A stretch of DNA of 26,084 bases from a virus, in IMG/VR virus record IMGVR_UViG_3300042542_000434, positions 1 through 26,084 of that record. The stretch is one strand, 5' to 3'. Of this stretch, positions 13,303 to 16,545 are shown one piece after another (the first letter of the stretch is position 1; every line of letters begins with the position of its first letter). The position numbers and the translations under genes are program-made. The notes under the pieces were generated by a model that was not told the DNA's origin, ran no database searches, and worked only from the letters and a program-made list of their open reading frames with translations.

Positions 13303-13806
13303 ATGTTTTCATTAATTTCAACACTAGGTGGATTGTTAGTCTCAGGACTACCTAGTCTACTAGGTTTCTTCCAAGACAAGTCTGACAAGAAACATGAGTT
13401 AGAACTAGCTCAGATGCAGACTGACAGAGAGCTACAGATGATGGAGCGAGGGTTCATTGCTCAAGCCAAGGTAGAAGAGATTCGTACAGACCAAATCATG
13501 ATGGAAACTGACTCTGAGATGACCAAGGCTGCCTATGCACACGATGCTAAGGTGCTTGAGAGAGCGTCTCCTTGGGCTTCTACATTCGTTGCTACTGTTC
13601 GCCCTGTAGTGACTTACTTGTTTGTGGCTGAGTTGTTCATCATCAATATCGGTATTGGTTGGTATCTATTCACTCACGGTACTTTGATTACAAGCGTTGA
13701 TGACTTCCTTAGAGCCACTGACATGATATTCAGTGAAGATGAGATGGCGATGCTTGGAGCTATCATCGGCTACTGGTTCGGTTCTAGAGGCTGGTCTAAG
13801 AAATGA
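13303..13806 (+). CDS. Holin, 3-TM type (GTA_holin_3TM-like)
   Basis: AAGGAG lies upstream of the ATG. The 167-residue product has an N-terminal hydrophobic segment (LISTLGGLLVSGLPSLLGFF), a charged coiled-coil middle (KSDKKHELELAQMQTDRE and following), then two more hydrophobic segments: RPVVTYLFVAELFIINIGIG and MAMLGAIIGYWFGSRGWSK. ASPWASTFVATVRPVVTYLF and the end IGYWFGSRGWSKK are typical of the 3-TM holin family first noted in gene-transfer-agent lysis modules. It would permeabilise the inner membrane to release the lysozyme encoded next, whose start overlaps its stop (ATGA). Confidence 0.85.
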   Translation: MFSLISTLGGLLVSGLPSLLGFFQDKSDKKHELELAQMQTDRELQMMERGFIAQAKVEEIRTDQIMMETDSEMTKAAYAHDAKVLERASPWASTFVATVRPVVTYLFVAELFIINIGIGWYLFTHGTLITSVDDFLRATDMIFSEDEMAMLGAIIGYWFGSRGWSKK

Positions 13807-14279
13807 AAGTAAGTCAAAAGTGTATAGAACAGATTAAGAAAGATGAGGGTGTCCGTAACAAGCCTTATCAATGTCCTGCACTTTTATGGACGGTTGGGGT
13901 TGGTCATGTTATTGACCCCCATCACGCTAAAGTTCCAATGGCTGATAGAAAAGCACTCCCTATTCCTGCAGGTTGGGATAGGATTCTAACTTCAATAGAG
14001 ATAGACGACATCCTTCGTACAGACCTCAATAGGTTTGAAGCTGGTGTCTTGCGTCTGATTAAAGTACCATTGACTCAAGGACAGTTTGATGCCTTGGTGA
14101 GCTTTAGCTTTAATGTAGGCTTAGGTAACTTACAGAACTCTACATTGCGTATGAAGGTCAATAGAGGCGAATACGAGGCTGCCGCAGAGCAGTTCCTAGT
14201 CTGGACCAAGGCTGGTGGTAAAGTTCTTAAAGGCTTAGTTATTAGACGAACCCACGAAAAAGAGATGTTCGAGTCTTAA
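13803..14279 (+). CDS. Endolysin, GH24 lysozyme with E-C-T triad
   Basis: The 158-residue protein is of T4/P1/R21 lysozyme size and hydrolyses the glycan strands of peptidoglycan. The active-site segment KKDEGVRNKPYQCPALLWTV places Glu15, Cys24 and Thr30 at the family spacing Glu-8 residues-(Asp or Cys)-5 residues-Thr, so the usual Asp is Cys here, as in phage P1 Lyz. VGVGH at 31-35 and QFDALVSFSFNVGLGNL at about 97-113 are further family hallmarks. There is no signal peptide or N-terminal anchor, so export depends on the holin upstream. It is the last gene of the rightward arm. Confidence 0.92.
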   Translation: MKVSQKCIEQIKKDEGVRNKPYQCPALLWTVGVGHVIDPHHAKVPMADRKALPIPAGWDRILTSIEIDDILRTDLNRFEAGVLRLIKVPLTQGQFDALVSFSFNVGLGNLQNSTLRMKVNRGEYEAAAEQFLVWTKAGGKVLKGLVIRRTHEKEMFES

Positions 14280-14297
14280 TATTACCGTTCGGGAAAG
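14280..14297 (+). repeat. 18-bp dyad repeat, copy 1
   Basis: The sequence TATTACCGTTCGGGAAAG starts one base after the lysozyme stop and recurs exactly at 14329. Its core TTACCGTTCGGGAA has two-fold symmetry of the form TTnCCG-TT-CGGnAA, as expected of a dimeric protein's binding site. No third copy was seen elsewhere in the window. Its function is unknown: operator, phage-specific promoter or recombination site are all possible. Confidence 0.8.
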
Positions 14298-14298
14298 A

Positions 14299-14317
14299 TT
14301 GCTTAATTATTGAGCAA
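14299..14317 (+). terminator. AT-rich hairpin between the two repeats, possible weak late terminator
   Basis: TTGCTTAA-TTA-TTGAGCAA forms an eight-base-pair stem with one G-U pair, placed midway between the two 18-bp repeats and 20 bases after the lysozyme stop. A short T run follows at 14326-14329 (CTTTTA). The stem is weak and the T tract is short, so this may be only a poor terminator for the rightward late transcript. Confidence 0.3.
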
Positions 14318-14328
14318 ATAACAGCTTT

Positions 14329-14346
14329 TATTACCGTTCGGGAAAG
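14329..14346 (+). repeat. 18-bp dyad repeat, copy 2
   Basis: This is an exact second copy of the 18-bp sequence at 14280, in direct orientation and 49 bp downstream (start to start, close to five helical turns of about 10 bp). It contains the same TTnCCG-TT-CGGnAA symmetry. No gene follows in this orientation, which makes a simple promoter role for the late genes unlikely. Confidence 0.8.
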
Positions 14347-14430
14347 TTTATGCAAATCCTCTTTTGAAAAGTGGAATTACATGAAAACCAATAAAAATAT
14401 CCTTATAAATCAGTAAACCGATTAACTGTG

Positions 14431-14458
14431 TAAAAAAAGACAGCCCCGAAGGGCTGCC
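14431..14458 (-). terminator. Intrinsic terminator of the leftward gene arm
   Basis: Read on the - strand, GGCAGCCC-TTCG-GGGCTGTC forms an eight-pair stem (one G-U) capped by a very stable UUCG loop and followed directly by seven T residues (the A run at 14432-14438 on the + strand). It lies about 34 bases beyond the stop of the last leftward gene at 14492, where termination is expected. In the + direction no T tract follows, so it acts on the leftward arm only. Confidence 0.92.
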
Positions 14459-14491
14459 ATAAAGGTCTCGGAAGGAGACTACACAAGGAAA

Positions 14492-14644
14492 CTATTTAAC
14501 AGGCTTGTAGGACTTTAACGCTTCTCTAAGAACATCGTTAATACCCCTACTGAGTAGAAACTCTTTAGCCTCTTCATCAAGCTCTAGTTCAATAATAGCC
14601 GAACCATCCGCTTCTTCAATAAGTTTTAATAAGTCTATCTTCAT
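14492..14644 (-). CDS. Small acidic protein after the RNR gene (50 aa)
   Basis: The ATG at 14644 overlaps the RNR stop (ATGA). The 50-residue product starts MKIDLLKLIEEADGSAIIEL and ends DVLREALKSYKPVK. It is predicted to be helical, with acidic ELDEEAKEFLLSRG in the middle. It is the last gene before the terminator at 14431. I do not recognise a family; the sequence LDEEAKEFLL.RG..DVLREAL is plausible as a small regulator or partner of the reductase, but this is only positional. Confidence 0.6.
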   Translation of the reverse strand: MKIDLLKLIEEADGSAIIELELDEEAKEFLLSRGINDVLREALKSYKPVK

Positions 14645-16545
14645 TTTACTGGACAAGCTCCTGAAGCACACTCATCACCGCCATCGAAAGATGCTTCATC
14701 AATCTTAGTGATTAGTTTAGTTTTAGATACCAACTCATCATAAGCTTCTTTTGTTATCTCTTCATAAGGGGCTTGTTTAAAGCCATGCTCACTGTGTAAC
14801 AAGAAAGACAAAGACTTATGATTGTTCTTGTAGTTCTTAGCTAGATACTTTTTAATTTCAGGTAACTCTTCTTTACGGTAGTAAACAGTACAAGACACAG
14901 AGTTATCACTCCAAACTTCCTGTAACCATTTAACTGTCTCTAACTGAGAGATAGCTGTCATTTCACTAGCTAAAACAGTTCCTTCTGGATAGGCAAAAGG
15001 GAAAGACACGACAACAGTGCTGTGGTCTTCAGAGCCATCAAAGTTCTGCTGATACTCTACAGGATAGCCATGCTCACGACATACATTAACCAACGAATGG
15101 TCGGCTGAGATGCGGATACGACGAATCATGTACTGAGCGTAAGCAGGATGACAACCTGGAGTAACACCTGGCAACAAAGACAATGTACCACTAGGCTTAA
15201 CAGTTGTAATCTTTACTGATGTCGGGAAGCCGTGCTCTTCGCTATACTTATTGTCAAAGTAACGAAGTTGTGTATAAGCAGGTCTTAACCAAGCTTTTTG
15301 TTCTTCGCTTGCTTGTAGTACACCTGTAACTCCAATACCCATCCGCATATTCTTATGGACAATATCAGCTGTCTCATCTAAGTGACAAGGTAGAGCTAAA
15401 GAGTGCTTGTTGATGCGGTATAGCAACTGACAGATGTCTACAAACTCTTCGTATGTTGACACATTAGGAAGCCATACTTCAGCCAGACAGCAAGTCTCAT
15501 AAGCAGCTAGTGATTGTTCTGCACATGGGTTGTAACCTTGAACATCAGGGTCTGGATACTGTGTCTCACCTAAACGACCCATCTTACGACTTAGTTTAAG
15601 ATTGATTAAACCGTAGGGTTCTCCCTTACCTTCATAACCATCCCAGAAGTACTCGTGCAAGTCTTTGATGTCGTTACACACTACTGAGTTGTTAGACATC
15701 GCTCTCCATGATGGAATGTTACCCATGTCCCAACGCTTTGCTAACAAGTATTCAACATCGTCAGCATCACCAATAGCAATCTGTGCAGAGCGACGCACAT
15801 TACCAGCCACGACAACAGCACCAATAATGTTCATAATATCTAAGCAGTCAATAGGGCGGAGATTACGACCAACTCTCTTCTCTAACACTTCACTAATCTT
15901 ATTAATACCCCAGCATAGGTCTTCTGGACCACTAGCTGTACCACCAAAGCCTTTGATTGGAGCACCCTTACCACGGATGTTCATTGTAGAGAAAGAGAAT
16001 GTACTCTTCTTGTCGCTTAGAAAAGCTGCTTTAAGCGTTTTACCGAGAAGTGCAACCCATCCCTCCCTAGAATCAGGAACAATAAAATCAGCATCGGCAA
16101 CATCAAGGCGAGTCGGAGCAGAAAAGCTGGGATTAACAATAGGTAATTTATCAACATTAACTTTCTGAATATTATAACCAACACCAGAGCCAAGCATTAA
16201 CATATCCATCGCCCATGTGAAAGGACGAACAGGCTCATTGATAACAGTAAAAGCACAGTTTTGAAGACTGGCTAGACCTAACTTGTCTACAGTACCTGTC
16301 CCCATTTGCCAAAGAAATCGACCAGCAACAGTGCCTTTCAATTCCATTAAGTATTTTTTCAATCTTTCATTTTCTTCTTGTGTAAAACCAACATTCAACT
16401 GCTTGTTCGCTGATGTGATTACACGATTCACTGTGTCTTCAAACTCTTCTGTAGGGCTATTAATATCTGCTTCGTTCATACGACGAGCATAAGTTCTTTT
16501 ATAAGTAATGTACCCAACGGTACTAAACGGTGTCTTGTGTTCCAT
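14641..16545 (-). CDS. nrdJ: Ribonucleotide reductase, class II (adenosylcobalamin-dependent), monomeric type
   Basis: The enzyme reduces ribonucleotides to deoxyribonucleotides for phage DNA synthesis, using coenzyme B12 instead of a separate radical subunit. In its 634 residues, NPCAEQSLAAYETC gives Asn339, Cys341, Glu343 and Cys352, the same spacing as Lactobacillus RTPR (Asn406, Cys408, Glu410, Cys419). LQNCAF supplies the other active-site cysteine, Cys97. The C-terminal ECASGACPVK has Cys626 and Cys631 (CX4C), the redox pair that re-reduces the active site. VKPSGTLSLLPGVTPG at about 449-464 is the conserved phosphate-binding loop. The family is typically near 740 residues, so this is a compact form. 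No class I small subunit gene is nearby, in agreement with class II. Confidence 0.93.
   Translation of the reverse strand: MEHKTPFSTVGYITYKRTYARRMNEADINSPTEEFEDTVNRVITSANKQLNVGFTQEENERLKKYLMELKGTVAGRFLWQMGTGTVDKLGLASLQNCAFTVINEPVRPFTWAMDMLMLGSGVGYNIQKVNVDKLPIVNPSFSAPTRLDVADADFIVPDSREGWVALLGKTLKAAFLSDKKSTFSFSTMNIRGKGAPIKGFGGTASGPEDLCWGINKISEVLEKRVGRNLRPIDCLDIMNIIGAVVVAGNVRRSAQIAIGDADDVEYLLAKRWDMGNIPSWRAMSNNSVVCNDIKDLHEYFWDGYEGKGEPYGLINLKLSRKMGRLGETQYPDPDVQGYNPCAEQSLAAYETCCLAEVWLPNVSTYEEFVDICQLLYRINKHSLALPCHLDETADIVHKNMRMGIGVTGVLQASEEQKAWLRPAYTQLRYFDNKYSEEHGFPTSVKITTVKPSGTLSLLPGVTPGCHPAYAQYMIRRIRISADHSLVNVCREHGYPVEYQQNFDGSEDHSTVVVSFPFAYPEGTVLASEMTAISQLETVKWLQEVWSDNSVSCTVYYRKEELPEIKKYLAKNYKNNHKSLSFLLHSEHGFKQAPYEEITKEAYDELVSKTKLITKIDEASFDGGDECASGACPVK

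Follow-up and report, generated by a model that had tools for sequence, protein, structure and literature searches.

The virus record IMGVR_UViG_3300042542_000434 from IMG/VR, analyzed here over its positions 1 to 26,084 and called the window, carries a pair of short symmetric sites (dyads) where its two gene arms converge. This 26,084-base record is probably a fragment. Two identical 18-bp repeats 49 bp apart had been described here in an initial annotation, and both copies are exact, at 14280-14297 and 14329-14346 on the plus strand, with a 14-bp core TTACCGTTCGGGAA at 14282-14295 and 14331-14344 that is built from HipB-type half-sites (TTACC / TTCCC). The 18-bp repeat matches twice in the window against 0.02 expected (shuffle mean), a count that 0 of 100 shuffles reached. 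The search for further copies that the same annotation proposed covered only this fragmentary 26-kb record, in which no other 18-mer matched at up to 3 mismatches. Assembly duplication of the second copy is very unlikely, because the exact 18-mer occurs in 8 IMG/VR contigs and 6 of them have the same 49-bp pair; of the remaining two, one holds a lone copy and the other an inverted variant in place of its first copy.

Copy 1 starts directly 3' of the stop codon of the endolysin gene (13803-14279, plus strand; phrog_7, E 6.8e-50), the last gene of the rightward arm, as the annotation had placed it. Between the copies lies an AT-rich spacer (14298-14328), and the hairpin predicted there exists as an imperfect 19-nt TTGCTTAATTATTGAGCAA at 14299-14317 but is not conserved in relatives. 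Folding of the 96-nt region is no better than that of shuffled sequence (z -0.16). The proposal that both sites occupy the same DNA face does not follow, because 49 bp corresponds to ~4.7 turns at 10.5 bp/turn rather than five. The arm junction is convergent, and outside the element it holds an intrinsic terminator of the leftward replication arm (minus strand, 14458-14439) and the leftward ribonucleotide reductase gene (14641-16545, minus strand; phrog_367, E 5.3e-132). The leftward arm also codes for a DNA polymerase exonuclease subunit, a DNA polymerase and a primase-helicase, the last closest to that of Pelagibacter phage HTVC115P (52%).

A fixed-gap scan of IMG/VR for two TTMCCNWWNGGKAA dyads at 49 bp returned 96 stretches, and one at 50 bp returned 75. 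A control scan at 49 bp with the motif reversed had 0 matches. A variable-gap scan (TTACCNWWNGGKAA, a gap of 22-52, then TTMCCNWWNGGKAA) gave at least 119 stretches, and 115 loci were read. Among the matches listed from that scan, 26 pairs were at 49 bp, 35 at 50 and 13 at 51, with none at 46-48 or 52-53 bp; a further 20 at 39 and 6 at 38 belong to a separate operator-like family, and the remaining gap values held 0 to 6. Once pairs with an identical element and near flanks were counted once, 139 distinct viral pairs remained in 138 loci, window included. These were grouped by BLAST of their flanks into 43 clusters, the largest of 66 pairs; clustering by common 11-mers had lumped every pair together and was dropped. 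A mobile element or duplication was rejected, since neither the flanks nor the spacers agree and no insert is common to them. Of 50 whole virus records, 46 have strict dyads, in most cases exactly two (one pair), with none elsewhere in the record.

Two neighboring classes of match were kept apart from these pairs. The 13 pairs at 51 bp were excluded as one coding family; they lie inside a single conserved family of coding sequences (L094, L134, L137, L138, L150, L153, L161 and others) and are probably a by-product of protein sequence. A phage operator family with TTACCNNNNGGTAA sites at 19-20 or 38-39-bp steps was also rejected as an account of the element, since its spacing is different and its contexts are promoter-like. 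Its members at 19-20-bp steps are arranged around TTGAC boxes with half-sites like those of the window (L111, L115, L117, L118, L121, L139, L151, L166, L188 and others), and these TTACCNNNNGGTAA sites are probably repressor operators.

The same pattern was found in bacterial genomes of GTDB, where at least 117 array loci, spread over many phyla by their titles, have 2-4 dyads at 49-50-bp steps. Two dyads are present in 69 of these arrays, three in 47 and four in 1, whereas viral arrays have two in 102 of 103 cases; the sole viral array with three dyads, at 49-bp steps, is L253 from IMG/VR. The bacterial arrays adjoin one small gene and one gene of ~420 codons. Among large open reading frames (ORFs) 100-450 bp from the arrays, 72 of 74 fall in one protein cluster; one member contains the domains HipA_C and Couple_hipA and gives matches of ~1e-37 to HipA chains of solved structure. 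The small genes form an alignable HipB-type family (21 aligned) with helix-turn-helix matches. In all, 102 of the 117 GTDB array loci listed have a hipA- or hipB-like ORF within 700 bp. The converse check began from hipA, using 34 hipA loci (118 kb), 29 of them from 60 genomes of one order and 5 from genomes chosen for arrays; every one of the 14 dyads found there is upstream of hipA, and each of the 9 steps measures 49 or 50 bp. Viral and bacterial dyads also have their flanks in common, A-rich before and T-rich after. Because the bacterial hipBA arrays have the same motif, the same 49-50-bp step and the same flanks, it is well supported from sequence that the phage dyads correspond to HipB-type operators of one hipBA subfamily, with TTMCC half-sites, whose bacterial members include those of Polynucleobacter (L274) and Halomonas (L380).

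Of the 15 listed bacterial arrays without a hipA- or hipB-like ORF, 8 are at the edge of the DNA examined. The other seven are L289, L291, L297, L302, L322, L345 and L384. Some of these have phage-type neighbors, namely a tail family (L291), helicase families (L345) and an integrase (L322), and the neighbors of L384 match PHROGs of unknown function, so that these four are possibly solo operators, carried by prophages or by mobile elements of another kind. For L289, L297 and L302, no phage match was found among the neighboring proteins tried (20 over all loci, part of those present).

The window has two TTMCCNWWNGGKAA dyads with a 49-bp step, as do hipBA operators of the TTMCC subfamily, but no hipB-hipA follows them: the record, a fragment, gave no HipA_C and no HipB match, and the dyads are for this reason read as a solo operator pair rather than a hipBA locus. 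Hidden Markov models built from operator-linked HipA and HipB found hipA/hipB-like ORFs in 3 of the 138 viral array loci, window included. These three viral-contig loci with both array and hipBA are L113, L164 and L438 in IMG/VR. PF07804 matched 1 of 50 whole virus records, and an alignment search for HipB, on a set largely overlapping this one, matched 0 of 50 records and 7 of 7 positive controls. HTH_3 matched 3 records of the set used for HipB. The HipB alignment is the test that counts, because HTH_3 detects these HipB proteins weakly (the HipB of L274 scored 17.8 against a cut-off of 23).

These searches bear on who binds the sites. The expectation of symmetric sites for a dimeric binding protein was borne out, and the binder is likely to be an XRE antitoxin of the HipB type, probably the host's. 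A phage-encoded DNA-binding protein, resembling HipB in specificity by chance or distant kinship, is a quite unlikely alternative: its gene could be missing from a 26-kb fragment and HTH_3 did match in three of the 50 records, but no HipB-like protein was found in any of them, and double convergence would be needed for such sites to agree with those of bacterial hipBA promoters in motif, step and flanks alike. Operators of a temperate-phage repressor were rejected, the record (a fragment) having no HTH_3 or HipB-like match. The three viral loci that do have array plus hipBA lend something to another idea, that the pair is a relic, a promoter remnant of a hipBA module gained and then lost by phages. 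We give this very little credence, as the spacers have diverged but the dyads and their spacing have not, the pairs form 43 separate flank clusters, and promoters are not enriched in viral arrays (the mean best score is 8.48 vs 8.57 for shuffled sequence; bacterial arrays are slightly enriched).

Among relatives of the window, the dyads are what is conserved. A search with the endolysin found 596 contigs, and 15 of the best 80, window not counted, have pairs, spaced 49 bp in 11 contigs and 50 bp in 4, with differing spacers, some dyads diverged and some flipped. Over 9 distinct 49-bp elements, mean pairwise identity is 0.86 for dyads, in either orientation, vs 0.50 for spacers. In L030, L032 and L042 the pair is found 1.4 kb further on, after another gene and again just 3' of a stop codon. 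The element is dispensable, because many relatives have none, and relatives without dyads keep a terminator-like hairpin directly after the endolysin.

The junction has other small palindromes, of which it is a mosaic. A second quasi-palindrome, TGCAAATCC...GGAATTACA at window positions 14351-14381, is inverted after the endolysin stop in relatives L020, L021 and L025, as if flipped by template switching. A conserved element also marks the leftward arm's 3' end: beside the leftward terminator, GGTCTCGGAAGGAGACTACACAAGGAAACT at ~14462-14497 hardly changes across many relatives, even though the next gene differs.

The dyads themselves gave little sign of acting through RNA. Half-sites (TTACC or TTCCC) combine in the 207 viral dyads as A/G 75, C/G 66, C/T 49 and A/T 17 at positions 3/12, in statistics that omit L113 and L164 because they carry hipBA, so that A faces G or C faces T in 124 of 207, combinations that would be mismatched in an RNA stem. 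Because half-sites mix freely, which an RNA stem would not tolerate, the sequences argue that the element acts as DNA and not RNA. No intrinsic terminator was called at the dyads, the leftward one at 14458-14439 being the only site found, and Rfam gave no gathering-score match in 14100-14700. It is therefore very improbable that the pair is an RNA element (a terminator or processing hairpin) or a phage replication, packaging or recombination signal; its position between convergent arms, where GC skew changes sign, would suit such a role, but gene direction alone explains the skew, folding is ordinary, and the element is missing from many close relatives, which also means that it is not an essential phage signal. 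The initial annotation's suggestions of a phage RNA polymerase, packaging, replication or recombination signal find no support, given this absence and because the pair is tied to no one gene or position and the same array lies upstream of hipBA in bacteria. Its alternative of regulator sites was right in kind, but the sites appear to belong to a toxin-antitoxin regulator of the host and to sit apart from any evident promoter. In the kilobase around the pair there is 1 sigma-70-like site vs 1.7 expected.

By simple ORF calls, 56 of the 139 viral pairs lie between tandem genes, 35 between convergent genes, 19 inside an ORF of at least 100 aa, 16 at an edge and 13 between divergent genes. The majority context of the 43 clusters is tandem in 23, divergent in 6, inside an ORF in 6, edge in 5 and convergent in 3. 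The window's own flank cluster, with 29 of 66 pairs convergent, 21 tandem and 1 divergent, and the several pairs that start 2-5 bp after a stop codon would fit a role in which HipB or HipBA of the host works for the phage as a regulator or roadblock, at an operon end stopping read-through from one gene block to the next, or reporting host stress, instead of HipA being disarmed. We regard this as unlikely, since an intrinsic terminator is already present at the convergent junction, dyad-less relatives keep their terminator-like hairpin right after the endolysin, and pair positions vary widely between clusters.

We favor a different role as the probable, though far from secure, one: that the pair imitates the host's hipBA operator as non-coding decoy DNA, which would hold HipB or inactive HipA-HipB and so blunt HipA growth arrest. 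The identity with bacterial hipBA arrays, the spacing and the occurrence without hipBA in many viruses are direct observations; that a HipB of the host binds the pair, which way the effect runs and that the phage gains from it are what we infer from them. Replicating phage DNA would present many operator pairs, which may bind host HipB or the HipA-HipB complex. Bound HipB would be stabilized and HipA-HipB on operator DNA would stay inactive, so that a high-copy operator pair might hold the HipA kinase in check and avoid a translation-stopping, abortive response. The pair would be expected to act in this direction because, in E. coli HipBA, operator DNA shields HipB from Lon and DNA-bound HipA-HipB is inactive. 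Passages from the literature report that an operator oligonucleotide slows Lon degradation of HipB (half-life >200 min, with a Kd of 0.6 nM for O1O2; PMC3376134), that HipA is trapped inactive with HipB on DNA (PMC3920265), and that HipA dimerizes within HipA/HipB/operator complexes (PMC7029023). A HipA-family kinase, HipAD/DS-6, is described in a passage of PMC13092281 as stopping phage, and the same gene pair is described as anti-phage in a retron context in a passage of PMC12548924. On a broader statement, that solo hipBA operator pairs serve many unrelated phages as a non-coding counter-defense, spaced exactly as needed for HipA-HipB to form on DNA in a locked, inactive state, so that replicating phage genomes act as a sponge for a growth-arrest kinase, we are almost evenly divided and lean slightly toward doubt.

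Several points weigh against the decoy. The pair is patchy, with 65 of the best 80 endolysin relatives lacking it at the threshold used, and no such dyad was found in 8 of 8 named phages that have part of their genes in common with the window or with further carriers of the array. Only 5 of the 34 hipA loci have dyads within 700 bp upstream, and 3 of these 5 (L386, L387 and L389) come from the array-chosen genomes. Not all viral pairs are at 3' ends, because 6 of the 43 clusters are mostly divergent and 6 are mostly inside an ORF of at least 100 aa, again by simple ORF calls, and most viral records are fragments. The operator steps of E. coli hipBA are 28, 39 and 28 bp vs the 49-50 bp found here, and we met no bench study of the 49-50-bp HipBA subfamily in the parts of the literature covered. 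HipB titration could instead derepress hipBA and help the host. Finally, the antitoxin of the phage-stopping HipAD/DS-6 differs and is not HipB, according to passages of PMC13092281 and PMC12548924.

Decoy DNA, or operator titration, works through extra binding sites that compete for a regulator, and the phage dyads would be like it in offering such extra sites. To our knowledge, no natural phage decoy DNA aimed at a toxin-antitoxin regulator has been described. Within the titles, abstract openings and passages searched, with subscription papers outside the search, we recognized no phage-borne hipBA operators and no decoy DNA directed at a toxin-antitoxin regulator. The arrays resemble bacterial hipBA operators, in which palindromes bound by a HipB dimer as repressor are repeated at set intervals, as in E. 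coli K-12 hipBA with four sites of consensus TATCCN8GGATA (in a passage of PMC3920265) and Legionella hipBST with three sites at even 53-bp gaps (in a passage of PMC10653801). They differ from this type in the dyad, which is TTMCCGWWCGGKAA here, in that no hipB/hipA follows and no promoter is evident, and in that the carrier is a phage. The proposed aim, stopping host toxin-antitoxin arrest of the infected cell, is shared with phage-encoded antitoxins such as ORF067 of cyanophage CL131, a putative HipB-like protein (in a passage of PMC6293099), but those are proteins, whereas here there are two short DNA sites and no protein. This 67-bp element makes it directly testable whether HipBA acts as an anti-phage system and how phages might counter toxin-antitoxin kinases without a protein, and the two-dyad signature offers a way to find phages and hosts that may be contesting HipA. 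If the decoy reading is true, 'empty' intergenic DNA of phages merits a search for other host operators, and non-coding decoy DNA would join protein and RNA among the known kinds of counter-defense.
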